Positions 3,076 through 50,967 of a stretch of 64,000 nucleotides of DNA are shown in pieces. Under the pieces are notes generated by a model. That model searched no databases. It had not been told where the DNA came from and saw only the letters and a list, made by a program, of their open reading frames with translations. Location: NCBI RefSeq assembly GCF_028877475.1, contig NZ_CP113527.1, positions 1,729,501 through 1,793,500 on the forward strand. The letters run 5' to 3'. The stretch's first letter is position 1; each line of letters begins with the position of its first letter. The stretch comes from Lysinibacillus irui. GTDB taxonomy: Bacteria > Bacillota > Bacilli > Bacillales_A > Planococcaceae. The position numbers and the translations under genes are program-made.

Positions 3076-3864
3076 TTGCGTTTAGAAGTTGACTCGATAC
3101 GTGTTGGTTATGAGAGCAAAACCATTGTGCATGACTTATCATTGCAAATTCCAGATGGCAAAATTACGACGATTATTGGTTCAAATGGTTGTGGAAAATC
3201 AACGTTATTAAAGGCCATTACGCGTATTTTAAAGCATGAGAGTGGGCAGGTCATATTAGATGGTCAAACGATTTCCAAGATGAAAACGAAAGAATTGGCT
3301 AAAGAGCTGGCAATTCTACCACAGAGTCCAGAAAGTGCACATGGTTTAACAGTGGAAGAGCTAGTATCCTACGGTCGATTTCCTTATCAAAAGGGCTTTG
3401 GGAATTTATCTCAAAAGGATAAAGAGGTAATCGATTGGGCTCTACAGGTGACCAAAACAACAGACTTCCGTTTACAATCTGTGGATGCTCTATCTGGTGG
3501 ACAGCGTCAGCGTGTGTGGATTGCGATGGCATTAGCTCAGGAGACTGACATTATTTTTTTAGATGAACCCACAACCTATTTAGATATGGCGCATCAGCTT
3601 GAGGTTTTAGAGCTGCTATATAAGCTCAATGAAGAACAAGGACGTACCATTGTCATGGTCCTCCATGATTTAAATCAAGCGGCACGTTTTTCAGATTATA
3701 TTGTAGCGCTTTCACAAGGTGAGCTGGTGAAATTCGGAACTGCAGAAGAAGTGATGGTTCCAGAAGTATTGAAAAAAGTATTTAATATTGATGCGGTCAT
3801 TGGCAAGGATCCACGAACAAATAAACCAATGTGCATTACATATGACTTATTACAAACGGTATAA
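3076..3864 (+). CDS. Iron-siderophore ABC transporter ATP-binding protein (FhuC/YusV-like)
   Basis: This 262-residue cytoplasmic ATPase powers a ferric-siderophore importer. Walker A is GSNGCGKST (about residue 36), the ABC signature is LSGGQRQR, Walker B is IIFLDEPTTYLD, and the switch histidine lies in VLHDLNQAARF. The last motif is typical of the FecE/FhuC subfamily. The start is a TTG preceded by GTGAGGG. It is the first gene of a four-gene operon (ATPase, binding protein, two permeases) under a Fur box, all tightly spaced. The ligand class is inferred from the binding protein next to it. Confidence 0.93.
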   Translation: MRLEVDSIRVGYESKTIVHDLSLQIPDGKITTIIGSNGCGKSTLLKAITRILKHESGQVILDGQTISKMKTKELAKELAILPQSPESAHGLTVEELVSYGRFPYQKGFGNLSQKDKEVIDWALQVTKTTDFRLQSVDALSGGQRQRVWIAMALAQETDIIFLDEPTTYLDMAHQLEVLELLYKLNEEQGRTIVMVLHDLNQAARFSDYIVALSQGELVKFGTAEEVMVPEVLKKVFNIDAVIGKDPRTNKPMCITYDLLQTV

Positions 3865-3877
3865 AAGGAGAAGGACA

Positions 3878-4804
3878 ATGAAAAAGTGGCTATTACCTAT
3901 GTTCATGATGCTTGTATTAGTACTTGCAGCGTGTGGCAATAAAGAAGAGAAAACAGAGAAGGCAGATGAAGGCTCAAAAGAAGCAACGTCAGCAGAAACA
4001 ATTACCTATCAATCAGAGACAGGTCCTGTGGAAGTACCAGCAAATCCTAAACGAGTAGTGGTATTATCGTCATTTGTAGGGGATTTATTACAGCTTGATG
4101 TAAATGTTGTAGGTGTGGATGCTTGGGCAGCGAAAAATCCAAACTTCGAAGATGCTATTAAAGATGCAGTGGTTGTTGAAAATACAGATATAGAAAAAAT
4201 TCTTGAGCTAGAGCCTGATTTAATTATTGGCTTAAGTGGAATTGAAAATGCTGATAAACTATCAGAAATTGCGCCGACAGTGTTATTTACGTATGGCAAA
4301 GTAGATTATCTTCAACAGTTTATTGAAATAGGGAAAGTTGTAAATAAAGAAAAAGAAGCAACGGCATGGGTAGAAGATTTTAAAGCACGTGCGTCTGAAA
4401 CTGGTAAAAAAATTAAAGAAAAAATCGGTGAAGATGCAACTGTCACAGTGGCAGAAAACTTTAATAAACAGTTTTATATTTACGGTGATAATTGGGGTCG
4501 TGGAACAGAAATCCTTTATCAAGAAATGGGCTTAAAGATGCCTGAAAAAGTAAAAGAAACTGCTCTAGAGCCAGGCTACTATGCGATTTCTCAAGAAGTA
4601 TTAGGGGACTATGCAGGGGACTATGTCATCTTTAGTATGTTCCAAGATCAAGATAATTCCTTCACTGATGCTGCGTGGTTTAAAGATTTAGAAGCAGTGA
4701 AAAATGGTCAATTATTTGAAGTGAATGCCAATGCCTTTTACTTCAATGATCCTATTACATTAGAGTATCAGTTAAAGTTCTTTGAAGAGAAATTTTTACA
4801 ATAA
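3878..4804 (+). CDS. Ferric-hydroxamate-type substrate-binding lipoprotein (FhuD2-like)
   Basis: This 308-residue lipoprotein captures a ferric siderophore outside the membrane. The signal peptide ends in the lipobox VLAAC, with Cys acylated. The ANPKRVVVLSS entry motif and a long central helix mark a class III binding protein. YGDNWGRGTEILYQ and FYFNDPITLEYQ closely recall the hydroxamate-binding staphylococcal FhuD2, as I remember it, so hydroxamates are the favoured ligand. The start at 3878 is set by GGAGAAGG and the immediate signal peptide; upstream in-frame starts lie inside the ATPase gene. It sits 13 nt after the ATPase stop. Confidence 0.9.
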   Translation: MKKWLLPMFMMLVLVLAACGNKEEKTEKADEGSKEATSAETITYQSETGPVEVPANPKRVVVLSSFVGDLLQLDVNVVGVDAWAAKNPNFEDAIKDAVVVENTDIEKILELEPDLIIGLSGIENADKLSEIAPTVLFTYGKVDYLQQFIEIGKVVNKEKEATAWVEDFKARASETGKKIKEKIGEDATVTVAENFNKQFYIYGDNWGRGTEILYQEMGLKMPEKVKETALEPGYYAISQEVLGDYAGDYVIFSMFQDQDNSFTDAAWFKDLEAVKNGQLFEVNANAFYFNDPITLEYQLKFFEEKFLQ

Positions 4805-4828
4805 TTGAGTAGAGAGTAGCGAAGGCAA

Positions 4829-5830
4829 ATGACAAAGTTTCGAAAGCTTCCATTTTGGCTTCAGGTATTGCTTGCTTTGACCGTATTATTTGGTACGGCC
4901 GGTATCTCGTTGTGCTTAGGGGCAGCGAATACGAGTATTCAAGATGTCTTTCAAGCAATTGTCGGACAAAGTGGTGGTAAACATTACACGATTTTACGAG
5001 AAATTCGCTTTCCTCGTATCATTGCAGCTATTTTTGTTGGTAGTGCACTCGCTGTCGCTGGAGCAATTATGCAAGGGGTTACACGAAATCCATTAGCTGA
5101 TCCAGGGCTGCTTGGTTTAACGGCAGGGGCCAATGCTGCCCTTGCCTTAACGATGGCATTTATTCCGAAATTCTCATATTATACGTTAATTTTAGCCTGC
5201 TTTGTTGGAGCTGGAATTGGCATGATGATAGTTTATGGAGTGGGTGCTTCTACTAAAAAAGGCTTTTCACCATTGAAGCTTGTGCTAGCGGGTGCGGCTG
5301 TAACGGCATTATTACAAGCAATCGCTGAAGGGACAGGCATTTTATTTCAAATTTCCAAGGATGTATCCATGTGGACAAGTGGCGGATTCATTGGCACAAC
5401 ATGGCAGGCATTATTAATCGTACCTGTCATTGTGATTGGTTTACTGCTAGCGTTTGCTTTTAGTCGCCAATTAACGATTTTAAGTTTAAATGAAGAGGTA
5501 GCAGTGGGCGTTGGGCAAAATACAACGATGATTAAAGGTATAATGATGTTTGTAGTGGTCATACTTGCAGGCTCAGCGGTGGCACTCGTTGGGAATCTAG
5601 CATTTGTTGGCTTAATGGTGCCGCATATGGTTCGTGCATTTGTAGGAACCGACTATCGTTTTGTCTTACCGATGAGCGCTATTGTTGGCGGCTGGTTTAT
5701 GGTGACAGCTGATTTTGCAGGGCGTATGATTAACGCACCATATGAAACACCTGTTGTGGCGATTATTTCAATTATTGGTCTACCATTCTTCCTACTTTTA
5801 GTGCGGAAGGGAGGACGCCAATTTGTTTAA
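4829..5830 (+). CDS. FecCD-family iron-siderophore permease, first subunit
   Basis: This 333-residue polytopic membrane protein forms half of the siderophore channel. It shows about nine to ten hydrophobic segments and the family motif GAIMQGVTRNPLADPGLLG (about residues 80-98). The coupling-helix region GLMVPHMVRAFVG, which docks with the ATPase, lies near residues 265-280. It starts with ATG 24 nt after the binding-protein gene and overlaps the next permease by 8 nt, implying translational coupling. Family placement is firm; the exact siderophore is not readable from this subunit. Confidence 0.93.
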   Translation: MTKFRKLPFWLQVLLALTVLFGTAGISLCLGAANTSIQDVFQAIVGQSGGKHYTILREIRFPRIIAAIFVGSALAVAGAIMQGVTRNPLADPGLLGLTAGANAALALTMAFIPKFSYYTLILACFVGAGIGMMIVYGVGASTKKGFSPLKLVLAGAAVTALLQAIAEGTGILFQISKDVSMWTSGGFIGTTWQALLIVPVIVIGLLLAFAFSRQLTILSLNEEVAVGVGQNTTMIKGIMMFVVVILAGSAVALVGNLAFVGLMVPHMVRAFVGTDYRFVLPMSAIVGGWFMVTADFAGRMINAPYETPVVAIISIIGLPFFLLLVRKGGRQFV

Positions 5831-6830
5831 AGACGGTCGTAAAAAACAGCGCAAATGGTTAATCCTTTGGCTAATTGTTACTCTGTTTATTTTTGTTATG
5901 GGCATATCATTAGGTGCTGCTTCTGTATCCATTGATCGTATTATTCCAACCTTGCTCGGCGATGGAAGTTTTAAAGAGTCCTTCGTGCTATTTTCGGTCC
6001 GCTTACCAAGAATGTTTGTGCTAGCTGCTGCAGGCATGGCGTTAGCTTTAGCAGGCGCTGTGTTGCAGGGCGTTACTCGCAATGATTTAGCGGATCCAGG
6101 AATGATTGGGATTAGTGCGGGTGCAGGAGTTGGGATTACTATATTTTATTTATTAGTGAAGGGGGATCTCCCTCACTTTGCTTATGTCTTACCTGCTGTA
6201 GGCTTTTGCAGTGCCTTATTAACAGCCCTATCGATTTACTTTTTCTCCTATCAGCGCAATAAGGGTGTGCATCCCGTGCAGTTTATTTTAGTGGGGGTAG
6301 GGGTCGCTTCAGCTCTATCAGGAGTCATGATGGTATTAATCTCCTCAGCCGAGCGTAGTGATGTACAATTTATTGCACAATGGCTAGCCGGTAATGTATG
6401 GGGCACGGATTGGCCATTTTTCTGGGCATTAGTACCTTGGCTTGTGCTAGGTATTCCTTATATTTTTTACAAGGCCAATGTCTTGAATGTCTTGGCTATG
6501 ACAGAGCAAACAGCGGTAGGCCTCGGCATGAATATAGGGCGAGAACGTTTGCGATTATTAATTGTCGCGGTTGCGTTAGCGGCTGCTGCGGTATCGATAA
6601 CAGGTGGTGTAGCCTTCATTGGTTTGATGGCCCCCCATATTGCCAAACAACTCGTTGGCCCACGCTATCAATTCTTTTTACCACTAACATTACTTATTGG
6701 AGCGAGCTTGCTTATGCTGGCTGATACGATTGGACGTGTTGCCATCGCCAGCGCAACTGTCCCTGCTGGTATTGTCGTGGCATTTATTGGTGCACCTTAT
6801 TTCTTATATTTATTGCGGAAGAATGTCTAG
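5823..6830 (+). CDS. FecCD-family iron-siderophore permease, second subunit
   Basis: This 335-residue paralogue of the preceding permease completes a heterodimeric channel. It has the matching motifs GAVLQGVTRNDLADPGMIG and GLMAPHIAKQLVG. The start is a TTG at 5823 with GGGAGG just upstream inside the end of the previous gene, giving an 8-nt overlap. A Rho-independent terminator follows about 100 nt downstream, so the operon contains four genes. Confidence 0.93.
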   Translation: MFKDGRKKQRKWLILWLIVTLFIFVMGISLGAASVSIDRIIPTLLGDGSFKESFVLFSVRLPRMFVLAAAGMALALAGAVLQGVTRNDLADPGMIGISAGAGVGITIFYLLVKGDLPHFAYVLPAVGFCSALLTALSIYFFSYQRNKGVHPVQFILVGVGVASALSGVMMVLISSAERSDVQFIAQWLAGNVWGTDWPFFWALVPWLVLGIPYIFYKANVLNVLAMTEQTAVGLGMNIGRERLRLLIVAVALAAAAVSITGGVAFIGLMAPHIAKQLVGPRYQFFLPLTLLIGASLLMLADTIGRVAIASATVPAGIVVAFIGAPYFLYLLRKNV

Positions 6831-6987: not shown

Positions 6988-7929
6988 ATGATTTTATTAG
7001 CACGTCAAACATCAGAGACGCAAAAGATGCTAGAGGCACTTATACAAAGACTTCCTGTATCCCATAGTGAATTTACATTTTATTGTGAGCATTTAAGGCG
7101 TCTACAGGCAGGATTCGCTGGTGAACAGCTCGTTGATGCAAAATGGCTTGAACTAGACTTACCATCCCCCCACTATTTTCTCCATGACTTTCAAACAATG
7201 AATGACTTTGGTTCTACCCATCAAATGGACACCATCTTCCTCTGTCCTCACTTTGTCCTCATCCTAGAAATCAAAAATATTACAGGCAAACTTTCATACG
7301 ATGCTTCATTCGCTCAATTAACACGTACGACCCCAGATGGTACAGTCGAAGGCATGACGGATCCATTTCTTCAGCTGGAACGGCATGTAGTATGGATGAA
7401 AAAACTAGTACAGAAGGAACGGATTGATTTACCAGTTTTGCATGCGGTGGTATTGGCAACGAGAAATGGTATCTTGACAAAAGGATTTGAGGGGCTGCCT
7501 ATCTTTCATGTGGCAGGGTTACGATTTAATTTACAAAAATGGATGGAGCGGCATCAACCTAGAGTAAGAGTAGACCTTTTGCGATTCGCCAACCTTTTAT
7601 TATCCCTGCAAATAAAGTTGAAAAAAGAGGTAGAGGTACCGCTCAAGGAAATGACGAAAGGTGTGTTATGTCCACAATGTGTTAATGGGCAGCGATTATC
7701 GTATCACTATAAAAAATGGACGTGCCCACGCTGTGGATTGGTGGACGATGATGCATTGGTTCGAACATTAGAGGACTACAGGTTACTAGTCGGGCAGCAG
7801 CTGACCAATCGAAGTTTTCGAGAATTCTTTGCCATTGCATCCCCAAACCTTGCATACAAGTTGTTGCAACAACTCCCATTGAAAGCGGAGGGTGTCAAAA
7901 AGCATCGAAAATATTGGATTATGGAATAG
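6988..7929 (+). CDS. NERD-domain protein with C-terminal zinc ribbon
   Basis: This 313-residue protein carries an N-terminal nuclease-related (NERD) domain: GFAGEQLVDAKW, then HQMDTIFLC and LILEIKNITGKL. In this fold the D-x(n)-E-x-K pattern is shared with restriction-like nucleases. A zinc ribbon (CPQC at about 230 and CPRC at about 248) follows, and the C-terminal 50 residues form a short helical module. RBS AGGAGGTG is strong. Function is unknown; NERD proteins have been proposed to act in DNA processing. It is monocistronic and directly followed by the first 21-bp repeat array. Confidence 0.9.
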   Translation: MILLARQTSETQKMLEALIQRLPVSHSEFTFYCEHLRRLQAGFAGEQLVDAKWLELDLPSPHYFLHDFQTMNDFGSTHQMDTIFLCPHFVLILEIKNITGKLSYDASFAQLTRTTPDGTVEGMTDPFLQLERHVVWMKKLVQKERIDLPVLHAVVLATRNGILTKGFEGLPIFHVAGLRFNLQKWMERHQPRVRVDLLRFANLLLSLQIKLKKEVEVPLKEMTKGVLCPQCVNGQRLSYHYKKWTCPRCGLVDDDALVRTLEDYRLLVGQQLTNRSFREFFAIASPNLAYKLLQQLPLKAEGVKKHRKYWIME

Positions 7930-7937
7930 AGAGCTAA

Positions 7938-7974
7938 GAGCTACAATTCAAGCGGTCTGAATTGTAGCTTTTGG
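7938..7974 (+). terminator. Hairpin after the NERD gene, terminator-like
   Basis: AGCTACAATTCA and TGAATTGTAGCT form a perfect 12-bp stem around a 7-nt loop shortly after the stop codon. The following TTTGGTGTTGT is only moderately U-rich. It is probably a terminator and marks the left border of the repeat array. Confidence 0.7.
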
Positions 7975-8007
7975 TGTTGTAGAGGGGAATGGCGCTTGAA
8001 ATAGGTT

Positions 8008-9595
8008 GCTAGAGAGCGGAGAAAGTGGGGGATACGCTTGAAGCAGGTGGATAGAATGCTCAAAGTGACGGATAAGAAGGAGAAAGTGGCGGATAGAACG
8101 CGCGAAGTGATGGATAGAGCGGGGAAAGTGGCGGATACGCGTGAAGTGGGTGGATAGAATGCTGAAAGTGACGGATAAGGTTGAGAAAGTAGCGGATAGA
8201 ACACGCGAAGTGAAGGATAGAGCGGGGGAAGTGGAGGATACGCATGAAGTGGGTGGATAGAAAGCTGAAAGTGACGGATAAGGTTGAGAAAGTAGCGGAT
8301 AGACCGCGCGAAGTGGTGGATAGAGCAGAGAAAGTGGGGGATACGCATGAAGCAGGTGGATAGAAGGAAAAAAGTGACGGATAAGAAGGAGAAAGTAGGG
8401 GATAGACCGCACGAAGTGAAGGATAGAGCGGGGAAAGTGAAGGATACGATTGAGTAGGTGGATAGAATGCTGAAAGTGACGGATAAGAAGGAGAAAGTGG
8501 CGGATAGAACGGGCGAAGTGATGGATAGAGCGGAGAAAGTGAAGGATAGAACGCGCGAAGTAGTGGATAGAGCAGAGAAAGTGGAGGATACGCATGAAGT
8601 GGGTGGATAGAAAGCTGAAAGTGACGGATAAGGTTGAGAAAGTAGCGGATAGAACGCGCGAAGTGAAGGATAGAGCGGGGGAAGTGAAGGATACGATTGA
8701 GTAGGTGGATAGAATGTTGAAAGTGACGGATAAGGTTGAGAAAGTAGCGGATAGAACGCGCGAAGTGAAGGATAGAGCGGGGGAAGTGAAGGATACGATT
8801 GAGTAGGTGGATAGAATGCTGAAAGTGACGGATAAGAAGGAGAAAGTAGCGGATAGACCGCGTGAAGTGAAGGATAGAGCGGAGAAAGTGGCGGATACGC
8901 ATGAAGCAGGTGGATAGGATGCTCAAAGTGACGGATAAGGTTGAGAAAGTAGCGGATAGACCGGGCGAAGTGATGGATAGAGCGGAGAAAGTGGGGGATA
9001 CGATTGAAGTAGGTGGATAGAATGCTGAAAGTGACGGATAAGAAGGAGAAAGTAGCGGATAGACCGCGCGAAGTGGTGGATAGAGCGGGCAAAGTGGAGG
9101 ATACGCGTGAAGTGGGTGGATAGAAAGCTGAAAGTGACGGATAAGAAGGAGAAAGTGGCGGATAGAACGGGCGAAGTGATGGATAGAGCGGAGAAAGTGG
9201 GGGATACGCATGAAGCAGGTGGATAGGATGCTGAAAGTGACGGATAAGAAGGAGAAAGTAGCGGATAGACCGCGCGAAGTGGTGGATAGAGCGGGGAAAG
9301 TGGAGGATACGCATGAAGCAGGTGGATAGACCGGGGAAAGTGGAGGATACACGTGAAGTGGGTGGATAGAATGCTCAAAGTGACGGATAAGGTTGAGAAA
9401 GTAGCGGATAGAACGCGCGAAGTGGTGGATAGAGCGGAGAAAGTGAAGGATACGCATGAAGCAGGTGGATAGAATGCAAAAAGTGACGGATAAGAAGGAG
9501 AAAGTAGCGGATAGAACGGACGAAGTGATGGATAGAGCGGAGAAAGTGGAGGATAGGATGCTGAAAGTGAAGGATAGAGCAATAAAAGTGAAGGA
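8008..9595. repeat. Tandem array 1: 21-bp modules in ~103-bp superunits
   Basis: About 1.6 kb consists of modules that start with GGATA and carry AAAGT near the end (GGATAG, about 7 variable bases, RAAAGT, 3 bases; 21 bp). Four such modules plus one 18-19-bp module starting GGATACG make a superunit of about 103 bp, present about 15 times (GGATACG-type modules near 8029, 8132, 8236, 8338, 8442, 8586, 8689, 8791, 8893, 8997, 9099, 9203, 9305, 9346 and 9448). The plus strand is strongly purine-rich and far higher in GC than the flanks. The superunit length shifts the reading frame by one each time, so a conserved protein is unlikely, although the minus strand is stop-free in long stretches. A related array lies at 43690-44214. 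Function unknown. Confidence 0.95.
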
Positions 9596-9692
9596 GACCT
9601 CTCTCAAAACCACACATCCCAGGCTAATAGCACATACCCCAAGAGCGACGTTTCGCTTATTTCCTACTAGACAAATAGAGTTTTTAGGTATA

Positions 9693-9711
9693 TAGTTAGC
9701 TAGGCTAACTA
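9693..9711. promoter_or_regulatory. MarR-type operator
   Basis: TAGTTAGC-TAG-GCTAACTA is a perfect inverted repeat 21 nt upstream of the MarR start codon. TAGTTAG half-sites are typical for MarR-family dimers, so this is the likely autoregulatory operator for the MarR-MFS operon. Confidence 0.8.
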
Positions 9712-9731
9712 ATTTAAAAGGAAGTGATGTT

Positions 9732-10151
9732 GTGACGATTGAGCAGGAGTTTTTTAATCAGTATCGTTTAATGTATAGGCCTTTTATTAATCAGCTGAAT
9801 GTGCAGCTTGAGCCTTATCAGTTATATAGTTCGCAGTGGGCTGTACTGCGTTTTTTGAAAGATAGAGGTCCACATTCATTTGTAGATATCGCTACTTTTA
9901 TGTCGATCGAGAAGCCGAGTGTGACGAAGCTTGTGCATAAGCTTGTGGAGTTAGGCTATGTGGAGACAGTAGCGGGCAAGGATAAGCGTGAGAAGCTTGT
10001 CCATTTATCGGCGCATGGTGATGAGCTGGTGCAGGAGATTAAGTTGCATTTGAGTCCGTTTTTTGAGCATGCCCTAGCAGGTGTGCCAGAGCAAGAGATT
10101 GAAATTGCGACCAAGGTTTTAGCGAGAATTTGTATGAATATCAATCAATAG
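9732..10151 (+). CDS. MarR-family transcriptional regulator
   Basis: This 139-residue winged-helix repressor has a central HTH (about residues 50-75, FVDIATFMSIEKPSVTKLVH) and the wing with KDKREKLVHLS, where the DxR-type positions contact DNA. The start is GTG with GGAAGTGATG ahead. A perfect palindrome lies just upstream, and the MFS gene begins 11 nt after its stop, so it most likely represses itself and the exporter and responds to a small lipophilic ligand. The ligand is unknown. Confidence 0.92.
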   Translation: MTIEQEFFNQYRLMYRPFINQLNVQLEPYQLYSSQWAVLRFLKDRGPHSFVDIATFMSIEKPSVTKLVHKLVELGYVETVAGKDKREKLVHLSAHGDELVQEIKLHLSPFFEHALAGVPEQEIEIATKVLARICMNINQ

Positions 10152-11524: not shown

Positions 11525-12394
11525 ATGAAAAATAAATCATTATTGTCAGTATTAGTAGCAGGAGGCATTCTAATGGCTGGCTGTGGCGATACAGAAGAAG
11601 TAAAAAAAGAGGACAAGCCGGCAACAGAGCAGTCAGAGCAAGCGACACAAGCAGTCGATTTAACTAATGAACTAACTGCCTATCAACAATTTGCGTTAGA
11701 GCAAATGGATCAATTTTTACTAGAAACAGAGAAATTTGTAAACTTATTCAAGGCAGGCGATATTGAAGGCGCAAAAGCAGCGTATGCACCAGCACGTATG
11801 TACTTTGAGCGCTCTGAGCCAATCGCAGAAAGCTTTGGAGACCTAGATCCACGTATTGATGGACGTTTAGCAGATATCAAAGACCAAGGCAAGGGCGAGG
11901 AAGAATGGTCTGGCTACCATAAGCTTGAGTATGCATTATGGGAAGAAAATACAACAAAAGGCTATGAAGCTGTAGCAGATCAGCTACTTGCAGATGCGAA
12001 GGAATTGCACGCTCTTGTGCAAACAGTTGAAGTGACGCCGGATTTAATGATAACAGGTGCAGTAGACTTATTAAATGAAGTATCGACATCTAAAATTACA
12101 GGTGAGGAAGAAATTTATTCCCATACAGACCTTTATGATTTTAAAGCGAATATTGAAGGGGCAGAAAAAATCTTTGATATTCTACGCTCAAAATTAGAAG
12201 CAAAAGATGAAAAATTAGTGGCCACACTTGATGAAAAATTTAAGGCAGTGGACGATTTATTAGCACAGCATGCAACGGCTAATGGTGGCTATGTGTCATT
12301 CGAGGAATTAACAGAGGACAACACAAAAGCACTTGCGGCAGCTGTTAATCAGCTTGGAGAACCATTAAGTCAAATGGGGATCATTTTGGAGTGA
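11525..12394 (+). CDS. efeO: EfeO/EfeM iron-uptake lipoprotein (M75 peptidase-like)
   Basis: This 289-residue lipoprotein has the lipobox LMAGC. After an acidic linker comes an imelysin/M75-like helical domain with the metal-site motif HKLE in SGYHKLEYALWEE (about residue 140). In the EfeUOB system it binds iron and delivers it to the permease. RBS GAAGG precedes the ATG. It is the first gene of the order O-B-U, with EfeB starting 6 nt after its stop. There is no N-terminal cupredoxin domain, as usual for Firmicute EfeM forms. Confidence 0.92.
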   Translation: MKNKSLLSVLVAGGILMAGCGDTEEVKKEDKPATEQSEQATQAVDLTNELTAYQQFALEQMDQFLLETEKFVNLFKAGDIEGAKAAYAPARMYFERSEPIAESFGDLDPRIDGRLADIKDQGKGEEEWSGYHKLEYALWEENTTKGYEAVADQLLADAKELHALVQTVEVTPDLMITGAVDLLNEVSTSKITGEEEIYSHTDLYDFKANIEGAEKIFDILRSKLEAKDEKLVATLDEKFKAVDDLLAQHATANGGYVSFEELTEDNTKALAAAVNQLGEPLSQMGIILE

Positions 12395-12400
12395 ACATAA

Positions 12401-13660
12401 ATGACAACATCAAACGATGAAAAATGGATCAATAAGAAAATTTCTAGACGTGATATGCTGAAGCTGACAGGCATTGGGGTTGCAGGTGTTGCCATCGGTG
12501 CTTCTGGCTTAGGCGGTGTCATGAAAGCAATGGGCTATAATGTCTTTGAAACGGTAGAAGATAGTACGACAGCTAGCAATAAGGTCAATTTTTATGGCAA
12601 GCATCAGTCAGGTATTGTGACACCTGTGCAAAAGAATATTTATTTTGCTTCTTTGGATGTTTTAGTGACAACGAAGAAAGAGCTACAAGAATTGTTCCAG
12701 CAGTGGACACCTCTTGTTGTTCGTTTAATGAACGGTGAATTAATGGTGGATGTATCGACGAATACAAGAGTGCCAACTGGTGATACAGGAGAGGCAGAGG
12801 GCTTAGATGCGGCCAATTTATCTATTACGATTGGTGTTGGTCCATCGCTCTTCGATAAGCTTGGCATGCAGCATTTAAAACCGGCAGAACTTAAAGATTT
12901 ACCACATTTCCCGAAAGATCAGCTACAGAAGGAATATACAGGCGGTGATTTGTGTATTCAAGCATGTGCAGATGATCCGCAGGTGGCTTTCCATGCTGTA
13001 CGAAATTTAGTGCGAGCTGCATCTGGTAAAGTAGAAATTAAATGGTCTCAGGCTGGCTTTAACTCGTTTCCTGCTGGTGGAGGAACACCGCGAAATCTCT
13101 TTGCCTTCAAGGACGGCACCGTGAATCCAGCGATTACGGATGAGAAAGATTTAAATAAGGTTGTATGGGTGGATAAAGGCTGGCTGAAAGGCGGCTCTTA
13201 TTTAATTGCGCGTAAAGTTCAAATGCATCTTGAAACATGGGATCGCACATCATTGAAAGATCAAGAAGCAACCTTTGGACGTTACCGTGACAGTGGGGCA
13301 CCCTTTGGCAAAACAAAGGAATTTGATGATTTTGATGTAGAGGCTAAGGATGAGAAAGGGAACTATATTATGCCTGATACATCACATGTCCATTTGGCAC
13401 GGAAATCAGGTGCGCGTATTTTACGTCGTTCCTATTCATATGCATCAGGTGTTATGTCAAATACAGGAACCCATGATGCAGGGCTTATCTTTATCTCCTT
13501 TCAAAAGGACCCAGCCCAATTTACAACAATCCAAAATAGCTTAGGGCGAATGGATAAAATGAATGAGTACATTACCCATCGAGGCAGTGCCGTGTTTGCT
13601 TGCTTCCCTGGTGTACAAAAGGGGAGTTATTTAGGTGAAGCACTTTTTAATGCGCTGTAG
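12401..13660 (+). CDS. efeB: EfeB Dyp-type heme peroxidase, Tat-exported
   Basis: This 419-residue deferrochelatase/peroxidase oxidises ferrous iron or extracts iron from heme at the cell surface. The N-terminus carries a twin-arginine signal (SRRDMLKLTG) followed by a Gly/Ala-rich hydrophobic stretch. The Dyp GxxDG-type motif appears as FAFKDGTVNP (about residue 235), and a late histidine in DTSHVHLAR is the likely heme ligand. In B. subtilis the homologue (YwbN/EfeB) is exported folded by a dedicated Tat pair. No tat genes are in this window. It overlaps EfeU by 26 nt. Confidence 0.93.
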   Translation: MTTSNDEKWINKKISRRDMLKLTGIGVAGVAIGASGLGGVMKAMGYNVFETVEDSTTASNKVNFYGKHQSGIVTPVQKNIYFASLDVLVTTKKELQELFQQWTPLVVRLMNGELMVDVSTNTRVPTGDTGEAEGLDAANLSITIGVGPSLFDKLGMQHLKPAELKDLPHFPKDQLQKEYTGGDLCIQACADDPQVAFHAVRNLVRAASGKVEIKWSQAGFNSFPAGGGTPRNLFAFKDGTVNPAITDEKDLNKVVWVDKGWLKGGSYLIARKVQMHLETWDRTSLKDQEATFGRYRDSGAPFGKTKEFDDFDVEAKDEKGNYIMPDTSHVHLARKSGARILRRSYSYASGVMSNTGTHDAGLIFISFQKDPAQFTTIQNSLGRMDKMNEYITHRGSAVFACFPGVQKGSYLGEALFNAL

Positions 13661-15350
13661 TATGGTCATCGCCTTCATCCTGACTTTAGCTTTGCCTGTG
13701 CAAGCTGCGCAATCTTATAGTCATTTATATATTGCGATCAGTGATGCACTGATGAATACAAAGCAGGATAAAGAGACGGAGGCCAAGCAAGCTCTTGAAC
13801 AATTTGCTACGGACTGGGCTAACGTTTCTTCAGAACAAACAGAGGCAAAAGCCAAAGTCGATAAAATTCTTCAACAGGCCACGAATGCCACTTCCAAGGA
13901 ACAACGTTTACAGGCGCTGTCGGCTCTATCGAATGCGTTACGTGACTTAGAAAAGCTTGAAAATCCTGTTGATGAAGCGGCACAGCGAACAGAGTTTGGA
14001 CAAAAATTTAAGCCAATTATGGCAGACTTTGAACAGGCTTTGGCAAGCGGAGATCGTCAGGCCATTGAAGAAGCTTATAAAGATTTTAATAGTAAATGGA
14101 ATAAAAATGAGCGACCTGTGCGGGAGCAAAGTATTGCGATGTATGGACAAATCGAAACACAAATGGCATTTCTTCGTATTTCTATTTCCGCTGAGGAACC
14201 AGATATAGCGCTAATGAAAACTCAATTTGCCGATTTACAAAAAACGATTGAGGATTTTGTGGCAGGAAAGGAAACAGCTGAAGTAGTAGAAGGTGACTAT
14301 TCGTTAGCTACATTGATTGCCTATATTGACGAGGCTCAAGATTTCATTGATGCTGGTGATTATCAGTCGGCTTCAAATAAAGTGCGTGAGTTTATTACGA
14401 TATGGCCAAGTGTAGAAATTGAAATCTCCACACGAAATGGCAGTCTTTATACGAAAATTGAAAGTGATATGCCTATTATTGCGAGTGATTTATTAAAATC
14501 TACTGTAAATCAAGAAGCACTGACAAAGCAATTAGATACATTCCGTACTGAAATCGAGCTCATCCAAGGTGATTCCGATTATACAATATGGGACGCCGCA
14601 TTAATTTTGCTACGTGAAGGACTAGAGGCATTACTTATTATTTTAGCCTTAGTATCATTTCTTGAAAAATCAGGTCAGAAGAAGATGCGAAAATGGATTT
14701 ATGTTGGTGCATTTGTCGGTGTGTTTTTATCAGCCGTCGCAGCTATTCTTATGTCGACCATTTTAAATTCAGCTACGATTGATACGAATCGAGAATTAAT
14801 GGAAGGCTATGTCGGCTTATTAGCGGCTGCTATGATGATTGGTGTCGGCATTTGGCTGCATAGTAAATCCAATGTGGTCAGTTGGAATCGCTATATTTCG
14901 AAGCAAATGGGTCAGGCTATTTCCAGTGGCTCTATTGTGGCAATGGCTGCAATCAGCTTCTTGTCAGTCTTTCGTGAAGGGGCGGAAACACTTGTCTTTT
15001 ATGCGGGTATTGCCCCGAAAATGGAGACCTCACAATTTATCCTCGGGATTGTCGTAGCACTGCTGATTCTTGCAGTACTTGCCATTGTCTTGTTTAAAGC
15101 AAGTGGCAAAATTCCAGTTCATAAATTCTTTGCGGTAGCGACCATTTTAATTTACGTATTAGCCTTTAAAATTATTGGTGTTAGCCTGCATACATTGCAG
15201 CTCACTGATCATTTGTCTTCAACAATTGTCGATCGCTTACCGGTTATGAGCTTGATTGGCTTCTATCCAACTGTGGAAACAATGATTGGTCAAGCTATTT
15301 TACTAGTGTTAGTGGCAGCTACTGTCATCTATAAAAAGAAACAAGCTTAA
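13635..15350 (+). CDS. efeU: EfeU/FTR1-family iron permease with long extracellular N-domain
   Basis: This 571-residue protein has a signal peptide ending near PVQAAQS. A helical, Lys/Glu/Gln-rich extracellular domain of about 290 residues follows, then a seven-helix FTR1 permease. The two REGxE ferric-iron motifs are LREGLEALLI (about residue 330) and FREGAETLVF (about 440). The N-domain has no CxxCH, so it is not a cytochrome. GTG 13635 is preceded by GGGGAG at a good distance inside the EfeB gene. Gene order O-B-U differs from the usual U-O-B order. Confidence 0.92.
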   Translation: MKHFLMRCSMVIAFILTLALPVQAAQSYSHLYIAISDALMNTKQDKETEAKQALEQFATDWANVSSEQTEAKAKVDKILQQATNATSKEQRLQALSALSNALRDLEKLENPVDEAAQRTEFGQKFKPIMADFEQALASGDRQAIEEAYKDFNSKWNKNERPVREQSIAMYGQIETQMAFLRISISAEEPDIALMKTQFADLQKTIEDFVAGKETAEVVEGDYSLATLIAYIDEAQDFIDAGDYQSASNKVREFITIWPSVEIEISTRNGSLYTKIESDMPIIASDLLKSTVNQEALTKQLDTFRTEIELIQGDSDYTIWDAALILLREGLEALLIILALVSFLEKSGQKKMRKWIYVGAFVGVFLSAVAAILMSTILNSATIDTNRELMEGYVGLLAAAMMIGVGIWLHSKSNVVSWNRYISKQMGQAISSGSIVAMAAISFLSVFREGAETLVFYAGIAPKMETSQFILGIVVALLILAVLAIVLFKASGKIPVHKFFAVATILIYVLAFKIIGVSLHTLQLTDHLSSTIVDRLPVMSLIGFYPTVETMIGQAILLVLVAATVIYKKKQA

Positions 15351-42608: not shown

Positions 42609-42623
42609 GATGGAGTGTACGAA

Positions 42624-43640
42624 ATGGATACGATCTTATTAATCACCATACTAGTCGTTATATTCGCGCTTGTATTCGACTTTATTAACGGCTTCCATGA
42701 TACAGCAAATGCCATTGCCACTTCTGTATCAACACGTGCATTAAAGCCACGTACAGCCGTATACATGGCTGCGGTAATGAACTTCGTCGGAGCGATTACA
42801 TTCGTTGGGGTAGCAAAAGCGTTAACAAAAGATATTGTAGACCCATTTACCTTAAATGCTTATGATGGCGATATTACGGGTTCGGTCGTTATTTTAGCGG
42901 CCTTATTATCAGCCATAACATGGAATTTACTTACATGGTATTTTGGGATTCCATCAAGTTCTTCTCATACGTTAATTGGTTCTGTTGCAGGTGCAGCCAT
43001 TGCGGCAGCCGGATTTGATATTTTGAACTATGCTGGGTTTATTAAAATTATCCAAGCATTAATTTTTTCACCACTACTAGCTTTTGCAGCTGGTTTCCTG
43101 ATGATGACAATATTGAAGGTCATCTTTAAGGATATGAATTTATACCGTACGAATAAAGGCTTCCGAACAATGCAAATCGGGACGGCAGCCTTACAATCAT
43201 TCACACACGGAACAAACGATGCGCAAAAAGCCATGGGGATTATTACACTCGCTTTAATTGCGGGTGGTCTACACCAAGGAGATGATATTCCATTCTGGGT
43301 ACGTTTTGCAGCGGCCACAGCAATGGGTCTTGGTACATCTGTAGGTGGTTATAAAATCATCAAAACCGTTGGTGGTAAGATTATGAAAATTCGCCCAGTG
43401 AATGGGGTAGCGGCTGACTTAGCTTCTGCTTCGATCATCTTCGGTGCGACATTAATTCACTTACCAGTTTCTACAACACATGTTATTTCTTCTTCTATCA
43501 TGGGTGTAGGTACCGCACACCGTGTCAAAGGCGTTAAATGGGGAATGGCACGTAAAATCGTCACAACATGGGTCATCACCATGCCAATATCAGCTGTCAT
43601 GGCCGCATTAATTTACTATATTTTAAGTCTATTTTTCTAG
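42624..43640 (+). CDS. pit: Low-affinity inorganic phosphate transporter Pit
   Basis: This permease of about 338 residues has the two inverted PHO4 signature repeats: FDFINGFHDTANAIATSVSTRAL near the start and LQSFTHGTNDAQKAMGIITLAL in the middle, both with the G-F/T-x-D/N-D-x-A/Q motif. About ten helices. It takes up phosphate as a metal-phosphate complex with protons. ATG 42624 is favoured by TGGAGTG six nt upstream; a GTG at 42615 overlaps that site. A perfect terminator follows, then the second repeat array. Confidence 0.93.
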   Translation: MDTILLITILVVIFALVFDFINGFHDTANAIATSVSTRALKPRTAVYMAAVMNFVGAITFVGVAKALTKDIVDPFTLNAYDGDITGSVVILAALLSAITWNLLTWYFGIPSSSSHTLIGSVAGAAIAAAGFDILNYAGFIKIIQALIFSPLLAFAAGFLMMTILKVIFKDMNLYRTNKGFRTMQIGTAALQSFTHGTNDAQKAMGIITLALIAGGLHQGDDIPFWVRFAAATAMGLGTSVGGYKIIKTVGGKIMKIRPVNGVAADLASASIIFGATLIHLPVSTTHVISSSIMGVGTAHRVKGVKWGMARKIVTTWVITMPISAVMAALIYYILSLFF

Positions 43641-43646
43641 TTCGCT

Positions 43647-43679
43647 AAGGAATGCACAATCACTGTGCATTCCTTTTTT
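43647..43679 (+). terminator. Terminator of the pit operon
   Basis: AAGGAATGCACA and TGTGCATTCCTT form a perfect 12-bp stem with a 5-nt loop, then TTTT. It marks the left border of array 2. Confidence 0.92.
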
Positions 43680-43689
43680 GTTTGGTGCT

Positions 43690-44214
43690 AGGAGCGGCAA
43701 AATGAGGATAGCGAGGGCAAAGTAGCGGATAGCACGGCAAAAGTGGCGGATAGCGAGGGCAAAGTAGCGGATAGAACCGTCAAAGTGAAGGATAGAGAGG
43801 GAAAAGTAGCGGATAGACCCGGCAAATGGAGGATAGCCCGGACAAAGTAGTGGATAGAACGGCAAAAGTGGCGGATAGCGAGGGCGAAGTAGTGGATAGA
43901 ACTGAAAAAGTTGCGGATAACGATGGCAAAGTAGCGGATAGTACGGCAAAAGTGAAGGATAGCCCGATCAAGTAGCGGATAGAACCGTCAAAGTGAAGGA
44001 TAGCCCGGACAAAGTAGTGGATAGAACTGCAAAAGTGAAGCGATGGCAAAGTAGCGGATAGAACCGGCAAAATGAAGGATAGCCCGGACAAAGTAGCGGA
44101 TACAACTGCAAAAGTGAAGGATAGCGAGGGAAAAGTAGCGGATAGAACCAGCAAAGTGAAGGATAGCCCCACAAAACTAGTGGATAGCCCCACAAAACTA
44201 GCGGAAAGCCCGCG
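43690..44214. repeat. Tandem array 2: ~24 modules of 21 bp, related to array 1
   Basis: About 24 modules of 21 bp (a few of 20, one truncated near 44040) follow the pattern GGATAG, 6-7 variable bases, CAAAGT or AAAAGT, 3 bases. Two variants alternate: one with AACNGNCAAAGTGAA-like and one with CCCGGACAAAGTAGC-like interiors, giving a 42-bp sub-period. GGATAG and AAAGT positions match array 1, but the 103-bp superunit and its GGATACG module are missing. Purines again dominate on the plus strand. The array lies between the pit terminator and a two-component operon. Long minus-strand frames in it are by-products of the module lacking stops on that strand. Confidence 0.95.
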
Positions 44215-44308: not shown

Positions 44309-44358
44309 TTCGGAGAAAAATGTTTTTTCCGTAGTAAGGTTAATGCAGGAGGAGAATG

Positions 44359-45057
44359 ATGAAGGAAAAGTTATTACTGATAGAGGATGATGCAGCTATT
44401 GGTCGCATTGTGAAGGATACGTTGGAGCAGGAGGGCTATTGTGTGACATGGGCTACTACAGGCCTTGAGGGATTAGCAGATTTTCAAGCGCAACCTTTTG
44501 ATTTAGTGTTGGTGGATTGGATGTTGCCAGAAATGGATGGTCTGACGGTTTGTCAAAATATTCGCTGGGAGAGTGATGTGCCCATCCTTATGATGAGTGC
44601 GCGTAAGGAAGAGGAGGATAAGGTGGAGGGCTTGCAGGGGGCAGATGATTATATTGCAAAGCCATTTAGTTTAGAGGAGTTAAAGGCACGGGTTGCCTCC
44701 CATCTTAGGCGCTGGCGACGCTATCATAAGCAAGAGCCGTTAGAGGAGCAAACTGCCTATGCGAATGGCTTAACAATAGATTGGCAACGGGAAATTGTCA
44801 GGGTTAATCAGCAAGAAATTGCGTTAACTCAAAAAGAATTTGCTCTTGTCAGGCTGCTAGCAAAAAATCCGAGTCAAACTTTCACGAAAGAGGAACTGTA
44901 TCAGCATATTTGGCAGCAAGCGACTTTAGAGGACACTCATACTGTCACCGTACATATAAAGGCACTGCGAGAAAAGCTCAAGGATTCAGTGAAAAATCCA
45001 AATTTCATTCAAACCGTGTGGGGGAAGGGCTACCGCTTTATTGGTGAACCATTATGA
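44359..45057 (+). CDS. OmpR/PhoB-type response regulator
   Basis: This DNA-binding regulator of about 232 residues has a receiver domain with IEDDAAIG (acidic pair), phospho-Asp in VLVDWMLPEMDG and KPFSLEEL (Lys). A winged helix follows, with NPSQTFTKEELYQHIW and DTHTVTVHIKALREKL. Two ATGs are adjacent; the second (44359) has better spacing to AGGAGGAG. It overlaps the kinase gene by 4 nt. Confidence 0.94.
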   Translation: MKEKLLLIEDDAAIGRIVKDTLEQEGYCVTWATTGLEGLADFQAQPFDLVLVDWMLPEMDGLTVCQNIRWESDVPILMMSARKEEEDKVEGLQGADDYIAKPFSLEELKARVASHLRRWRRYHKQEPLEEQTAYANGLTIDWQREIVRVNQQEIALTQKEFALVRLLAKNPSQTFTKEELYQHIWQQATLEDTHTVTVHIKALREKLKDSVKNPNFIQTVWGKGYRFIGEPL

Positions 45058-50070: not shown

Positions 50071-50967
50071 ATGAATTATATTACACCGAACAAAGCCATG
50101 TTAAAGATGAACAGATGGCCTCGGCAGACGATAGCAGCGGGTCGGCGACATTCCGTTGGGCTTCAAGCTGATGGAACTGTGGTGGCTACAGGAGATAATA
50201 AATATGGGCAATGTCATGTAAGCGGTTGGCGTGATATAGTAGCGGTGGCGGCTGGTAATGTTCATATGGCGAGGAATACAGGAAATACGCATACAATTGG
50301 TCTTCACTCAAACGGTACGGTGGAAGCTGTTGGTTGGAATAAGCATAATCAATGTCATGTAAACGAGTGGTGTGATATAGTCTCGGTTGCAGCCGGCTGG
50401 TGTCATACCATTGGCCTTCAATCGAATGGTATGGTGCTCGCAGTGGGCCGAAATCATGAAGGAGAGTGCCAAGTAAACGACTGGCGTAACATTGTAGCAA
50501 TCGCTGCAGGTGACTGGCACACTATTGGTCTTCAATCGGACGGCTCGGTAACCGCTGCAGGGAATAATCGCTACCACCAATGTAACGTCCATGATTGGCG
50601 CAATATGGTGTCGGTTGCTGCAGGTTATCTTCATACAATTGGTCTTCATTCAGACGGCACTGTATCAGCCGTGGGGTCGAATAAACATAAGCAATGCGAT
50701 GTAATGGGCTGGCAAGGGATGGTGTCGGTAGCAGCGGGTAGTTACCATACCATTGGACTTCAAGCTGATGGCACGGTAATAGCTGTTGGTTTGAATAAAC
50801 ATGGTCAATGTAATGTAAATGACTGGCATGATATTGTGGCAGTTGCGGCGGGTTGCGCACATACTGTTGGACTTCGAGCAGATGGCACAGTGGTTGCAGT
50901 AGGGGATAATGAGTATGGCCAATGCGATGTAAGTGGCTGGCAGGGCATACGAGTACATGGCGATTAG
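50071..50967 (+). CDS. RCC1-repeat beta-propeller protein
   Basis: This 298-residue protein is almost entirely seven repeats of about 38 residues with consensus HTIGLQxDGTVxAVGxNxxxQCxVxxWxxIVxVAAG. The repeats begin near residues 27, 74, 112, 150, 188, 226 and 264. An 11-residue insertion (NVHMARNTGNT) sits after the first. The N-terminal RWPRQTIAAG supplies strands that complete the last blade, so a closed seven-bladed propeller is expected. No signal peptide is visible, so it should be cytoplasmic. Eukaryotic RCC1 acts on Ran, which bacteria lack; a binding role is the safest guess. RBS AAGGAGGT is strong. Confidence 0.92.
   Translation: MNYITPNKAMLKMNRWPRQTIAAGRRHSVGLQADGTVVATGDNKYGQCHVSGWRDIVAVAAGNVHMARNTGNTHTIGLHSNGTVEAVGWNKHNQCHVNEWCDIVSVAAGWCHTIGLQSNGMVLAVGRNHEGECQVNDWRNIVAIAAGDWHTIGLQSDGSVTAAGNNRYHQCNVHDWRNMVSVAAGYLHTIGLHSDGTVSAVGSNKHKQCDVMGWQGMVSVAAGSYHTIGLQADGTVIAVGLNKHGQCNVNDWHDIVAVAAGCAHTVGLRADGTVVAVGDNEYGQCDVSGWQGIRVHGD

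Follow-up and report, generated by a model that had tools for sequence, protein, structure and literature searches.

What is the purine-rich tandem array that fills 8008–9595 of this part of the Lysinibacillus irui chromosome, and does it belong to anything already described? The array was analysed in the window (the whole stretch of 64,000 nucleotides), in the whole L. irui genome, and across 261 genomes of the order, 32 of them from the genus. It is a real, genome-wide and uncharacterised element, and it is of a kind already in print. The array and its neighbours are arranged as follows.

6988..7929, plus strand: gene for a NERD (nuclease-related) domain protein, upstream and co-oriented (Pfam NERD, E 4.8e-15)
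7939..7972, plus strand: terminator hairpin of the NERD gene, with a short T tract (by eye)
8030..9592, plus strand: GGATA array of 76 modules, superunit usually 4 × 21 + 18/19 bp (module count)
9668..9696, plus strand: promoter-like site behind the array and ahead of the MarR gene (10 of 12 in a consensus scan)
9732..10151, plus strand: MarR-family regulator gene, downstream (Pfam MarR_2, E 1.5e-11)

The 76 modules, each with an exact GGATA, are separated by spacings of 21 bp (60 times), 19 bp (12 times) and 18 bp (3 times), giving 15 short modules. The usual superunit is four 21-mers and one 18- or 19-mer, or 102–103 bp, in agreement with the earlier note, which counted about 75 modules in some 15 such groups. 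Tandem Repeats Finder reports period-103 arrays with an 86–88% match. The superunit is departed from in a run of six 21-mers (8460–8585), in a lone 21-mer flanked by two 19-mers (9324–9344), and at the 3′ end, which has five 21-bp spacings and no short module. By eye, incomplete modules reach slightly past the exact ones at both ends, starting near 8008 and stopping near 9600. Purine content in 8008–9595 is 76.3% and GC content is 49.4% against 39.8% for the window, so the purine bias and raised GC described earlier also hold. Because the array is purine-biased, stop-free ORFs of 517, 457, 219 and 215 aa lie on the minus strand within 7941–9617; automatic annotation could call them hypothetical proteins.

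A rule-based scan accepted a sense terminator in the 150 bp ahead of the array, and a second terminator scan lists none there. The promoter-like site at 9668–9696 is weak, since shuffles give more such sites than the region does. At the MarR locus in 30 genomes, GGATA modules adjoin the gene in 22, modules of a second, GGAAAG type alone in 2, and neither in 6. The gene on the upstream side varies among species; in one genome (L256) it is a fecCD-type transporter gene by eye. Translations around the array region of the window resemble iron genes, namely a siderophore-type transporter (3076–6830) and an Efe-type uptake system (11525–15350).

The repeat unit was profiled from 351 21-mers in 15 arrays of the L. 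irui genome, anchored on GGATA and not on AAAGT. It consists of a 16-bp box, AAAGTRRHGGATAGAA, and a 5-bp core with hardly any base preference. Exact GGATA is kept at 88.6% of module starts in these 15 arrays; because GGATA anchored the count, its conservation is not independent evidence. Changes were counted in 353 pairs of nearest copies that differ at no more than three positions. AAAGT carries 10.4 changes per position against 43.6 in the core, about four times fewer. Flanking box positions 6–8 and 19–21 average about 35 changes, with 70 at position 21, and vary nearly like the core, so strong constraint is confined to AAAGT and, to the extent that the anchoring allows a judgement, GGATA. 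The constancy of these two motifs, claimed from the window, was borne out genome- and genus-wide, with GGATA as the anchor of the count.

In the whole L. irui genome the pattern GGATA-N9-AAGT-N3-GGATA is matched 230 times forward and 23 times in reverse. Its backwards-read control has none in either direction, which argues that the repeat is not due to chance. The 4.45-Mb L. irui chromosome (G000) holds at least 18 arrays of 3 to 76 modules, a minimum because the patterns used omit some module types. Fifteen of these lie within 1.39–2.50 Mb, close to the terminus and mainly on the right replichore, and in another genome (G001) the arrays are spread more evenly along the chromosome. Three-module matches were found in 26 of the 32 genomes of the genus and in 29 of the 261 genomes of the order, leaving 3 of 229 outside the genus. 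The earlier note proposed a search of the genome and its relatives for further copies, and copies occur in both. Among the matches listed, most are from Lysinibacillus, with others from Sporosarcina, Halobacillus, Pontibacillus, Litchfieldia and Peribacillus. In these other genera the box mostly reads GGATAWA instead of GGATAGA. The second box type, GACGGAAAG (GGAAAG type), has the same 21-bp pitch and occurs in 9 of the 32 genomes, 23 giving no match to its pattern; all nine carry GGATA-type matches too.

A second array in the window, which the earlier note on this one does not mention, lies at another locus.

42615..43640, plus strand: PHO4-type phosphate transporter gene, upstream of the sister array (Pfam PHO4, E 1.9e-95)
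43649..43679, plus strand: terminator hairpin and T tract separating the sister array from the transporter gene (by eye)
43706..44202, plus strand: sister array of 23 GGATA modules with spacings nearly all 20–21 (module count, Tandem Repeats Finder)
44356..45057, plus strand: response regulator gene, downstream of the sister array (Pfam Response_reg, Trans_reg_C)

This locus was compared in 26 genomes, where the array has 0 to 51 GGATA modules. A terminator motif is present in 23 of them and absent in three (L223, L224 and L226). Four genomes (G012, G020, G027 and G029) have an array-free gap of 152–157 bp between the two genes. As some species have no array at the orthologous site, a single array is dispensable.

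Arrays show a strong tendency to follow directly on a gene of the same direction, and often on its intrinsic terminator. In many flanks the order is stop codon, hairpin with a T run, and first module. Of 103 arrays, 61 have a sense terminator in the 150 bp upstream and 14 have one downstream; for antisense terminators the numbers are 14 upstream and 24 downstream. In random windows a terminator is present in 20 of 455 and 19 of 455. The 103 arrays exclude those within 160 bp of a locus end and 12 non-Bacillales loci; at these, an ORF of 100 aa or more encloses the array or array pair in 11 of 12 cases. Gene neighbours were called by a longest-ORF script. Among 93 arrays, after removal of 33 too near the edge of a locus and 3 whose neighbouring genes were far off, 51 lie in tandem gene pairs and run with the genes, 5 run against them, 32 lie in convergent gaps and 5 in divergent ones. 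As background, these loci contain 193 tandem, 38 convergent and 100 divergent gaps. In the L. irui genome alone, an upstream sense terminator precedes 11 of the at least 18 arrays, with none by rule in 7; 15 of the arrays come after a co-oriented gene and three do not. One of these three, at about 1717–1719 kb (L159), has by eye a cobalamin riboswitch-like stretch on its 3′ side, ahead of the next gene.

Arrays are also polar with respect to replication. The G000 sequence starts with dnaA (Pfam), and four other genomes (G001, G008, G013 and G021) have the same starting stretch. In these five dnaA-anchored genomes 33 of 36 arrays have the leading-strand sense, a count that omits other genomes' orthologs of the two window arrays. 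The terminus was set at 52.5% of length; GC skew changes at 2.3–2.4 Mb in G000 and at 2.8–2.95 Mb in G001. In G000, both window arrays included, 15 of the at least 18 arrays point with the leading strand. The three against replication in the five-genome set are all in G000, at 1833, 1912 and 1971 kb (L160–L162), and the 1971-kb array is also without a preceding co-oriented gene. These three lie within about 140 kb of each other, and GC skew is not reversed there. In G001, 15 GGAAAG-type arrays are on the plus strand up to 2.56 Mb and on the minus strand from 3.17 Mb; as this switch brackets the skew change, all 15 are leading. In G009, the seven arrays fetched are all on the plus strand, in the sampled part with positive skew.

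Over all genomes with a known origin, 48 of 51 arrays are leading, compared with 69 of 92 sampled genes (p 0.0006). Because 69 of 92 sampled genes are themselves leading-strand, the gene-direction and replication rules are partly confounded. Convergent gaps are informative, since gene direction cannot decide there, and in these 16 of 18 arrays are leading (p 0.0013). The 18 comprise 15 sites of the dnaA-anchored set plus L324, L331 and L335, with the second half of L323 omitted. Both p values are too small, as orthologous arrays were counted more than once. The idea that arrays merely follow the upstream gene was replaced: convergent gaps and the dnaA-anchored genomes show replication as a second rule.

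The boxes recur at about two helical turns, as the earlier note claimed. Mean spacing over 72 arrays with differing superunits is 20.62 bp (quartiles 20.55–20.74, extremes 18.68 and 21.22), a mean bounded by the detection rule, which accepts spacings of 18–22 and their sums. The 22 arrays of at least 30 modules have a median pitch of 20.56 (10th–90th percentile 20.47–20.72), and three arrays (L251, L254 and L303) are purely or nearly purely of 21 bp. Because arrays with unlike superunits share a mean pitch of about 20.6 bp, the short module may keep helical phase, at about 10.3 bp per turn, by cancelling the drift of the 21-mers. The earlier proposal that the 19-mer rotates the binding face is not favoured, as the shared pitch looks like phase correction. 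An array of Lysinibacillus cavernae (NZ_WMEF01000007.1, 23–921; L088) has spacings that start 21-21-21-30, with one lengthened and not shortened module per superunit.

The earlier note knew of no described element with this structure, which does not hold for the class: a class of 20–21-nt repeats of constant length and variable sequence is in print (PMC8161180). These Bacillus repeats, and others of 52 nt, are tandem and non-coding, with short signals common to each species. Subirana and Messeguer (2021) call them enigmatic and offer nucleoid proteins or small RNAs as guesses (PMC8161180). The window array most likely belongs to the 20–21-nt class. That class has at least four repeats of 20–21 nt, most of them equally long, and 60 of the 75 spacings in the array are 21. 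Like the class it is apparently non-coding, judged from the change of frame with each superunit and from the lack of a Pfam or NCBIfam match. Over 15 arrays, themselves selected by GGATA, a short signal is common to the species' arrays and the rest is variable. Bacillus 20–21-nt repeats and Lysinibacillus arrays also share direct repeats and several families per genome. The 21-nt signal of B. weihaiensis, TCGCGG (PMC8161180), is found inside the box in three of nine Bacilli loci outside Lysinibacillus (L042, L084 and L102); a link through this six-base match is suggestive only. The 52-nt repeats of B. coagulans and others likewise have constant length, conserved short signals, a variable rest and many arrays per genome, and differ in unit length, in their sequences, and in signals that often occur in both senses per repeat (PMC8161180). 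PMC11166776 gives counts of 364, 350 and 391 tandem repeats for three L. irui genomes.

For Lysinibacillus arrays the present analysis describes a 103-bp superunit and a polarity with replication; in the main text of PMC8161180 the words 'terminator', 'orientation', 'downstream', 'intergenic' and 'Lysinibacillus' do not occur. As far as a search of open-licence papers shows, four features are added here: a defined box, a preference for sites behind terminators, a polarity relative to replication and a mean pitch of 20.6 bp. The box, the post-terminator place, the replication sense, the pitch and the array-free orthologous sites make this enigmatic repeat class testable, and the array-free sister species are natural deletion controls.

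Two other kinds of repeat invite comparison. Plasmid iterons and parC-type repeats are direct repeats about two helical turns apart, cooperatively bound, and each kind sits at one locus next to a rep or par gene. Lysinibacillus arrays share the direct repeats and the spacing, but number at least 18 on one chromosome, with 3 to 76 modules, beside varied genes. The KOPS and SRS sites of FtsK and SpoIIIE are dispersed 8-bp sites, polar along each replichore from origin to terminus. Lysinibacillus arrays are polar on both replichores too (48 of 51), but they are phased arrays instead of dispersed sites, and the translocase gamma domain hardly differs between genomes with different boxes.

We tentatively read the array as a polar, helically phased platform for a putative oligomerising DNA-binding protein, a reading that comes near to an even chance. 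The platform proposed in the earlier note thus stays the best reading, though its protein was not found. It draws on the contrast of box and core, the shared pitch, the placement, the polarity and the presence of arrays at orthologous sites. Its best-supported step, predicted from the sequence data, is that such a protein would bind double-stranded DNA sequence-specifically, at a box that has a direction and is in phase with the helix. An oligomerising binder of double-stranded DNA would coat the boxes along one face, the short module would hold them in register, and the polarity of the coated array would matter to something moving along the chromosome. More weakly, the array could be a one-way barrier keeping head-on (antisense) transcription out of the ends of leading-strand genes, proposed because it fits both placement rules. 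Alternatively, it could be a directional mark on the chromosome, proposed because it fits the polarity. Should such a reader protein exist, spore-formers could have in it a new type of protein for organising the chromosome or controlling traffic on it. A general form, in which 20–21-nt satellites of Bacilli would be one-way, phased protein filaments behind leading-strand gene terminators, with the specificity of the putative binder drifting between lineages, keeping head-on transcription or another polar process off gene ends, is on present evidence unlikely. Copies in related species are not independent, and this counts against the platform reading. So do the variable flanking box positions, the 7 L. 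irui arrays with no upstream terminator by rule, the three that point against replication, the three that follow no co-oriented gene, the orthologous sites free of arrays, the second box type in nine genomes and the arrays of pure 21-bp pitch.

Of the rivals, the strongest is a satellite, selfish or neutral, that changes size by slippage and unequal exchange and persists in the stretch separating a terminator from the regulatory site that follows; we consider it possible but doubtful. Its polarity would come from seeding or copying, for example on the single-stranded lagging-strand template beside terminator hairpins, and the box would be the recognised sequence. Group IIC introns are an example of terminator targeting. 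Such a satellite accounts well for place and turnover: the number of modules at one site varies between 0 and 51, homogenisation within arrays goes by superunit, divergent gaps hold few arrays (5 of 93), and upstream genes are unrelated. It accounts less well for constraint and pitch, since AAAGT is conserved above the core even among near-identical copies and mean pitch is similar over superunit types. A look that was not systematic linked the arrays to no mobile gene or enzyme, which also speaks against it. An element acting as RNA, in which purine-rich read-through repeat RNA titrates an RNA-binding protein or forms R-loops, is improbable. In tandem pairs, 51 of 56 arrays do lie behind the upstream gene and share its direction, and the B. 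coagulans 52-nt repeats are reported as transcribed (PMC8625621). Against this, a terminator is frequently ahead of the array, the polarity in convergent gaps is left unexplained, and folding of the plus-strand array RNA is unremarkable (z 0.29, with 59 of 100 shuffles as good or better). Rfam covariance models gave no match up to E 1 on either strand of 7800–9800, and minus-strand DNA of the array has no strong fold (z −0.75, 23 of 100 shuffles as good).

The platform reading also has to be set against two accounts that draw on familiar systems. A guide sequence for the DNA translocases SpoIIIE or SftA, in the manner of KOPS or SRS, would explain arrays that are polar with replication, and two FtsK_gamma proteins per genome were found in four genomes. 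We nevertheless hold it to be very unlikely: the gamma domains differ in at most 3 of 63 residues among G000 (with GGATA arrays), G001 (with both box types) and two genomes matching neither box pattern, and GGATA outside both arrays of the 64-kb window is unbiased (62 plus, 59 minus), without the dispersed strand bias of KOPS. To our knowledge, guides of the KOPS or SRS type need no tandem phasing. A repeat-protein gene, active or decayed, is hardly credible. Its attractions are that 21 bp makes seven codons and that the minus strand is open over 517 aa, but the frame shifts with every 102–103-bp superunit, the longest plus-strand ORF over the array has only 79 aa, and the two longest minus-strand ORFs have no Pfam or NCBIfam match at E 0.001. 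The decayed gene that the earlier note had named as a possible refutation was therefore not recognisable.

A fork trap of the B. subtilis RTP type was rejected as an identity of the array, as RTP scored over the cut-off in none of the 32 genomes, with two weak matches below it and a positive B. subtilis control. BLAST gave no match that would point to a plasmid or phage source, a weak result because the low-complexity filter was on and near records were possibly excluded. A minority of modules are within two bases of a DnaA box, or contain AGCGG, the AddAB Chi sequence. Downstream of the sister array, at 50071–50967 on the plus strand of the window, a 298-aa ORF has repeats of about 38 residues that by eye resemble the RCC1 type, and the same ORF is the source of a period-114 tandem repeat.
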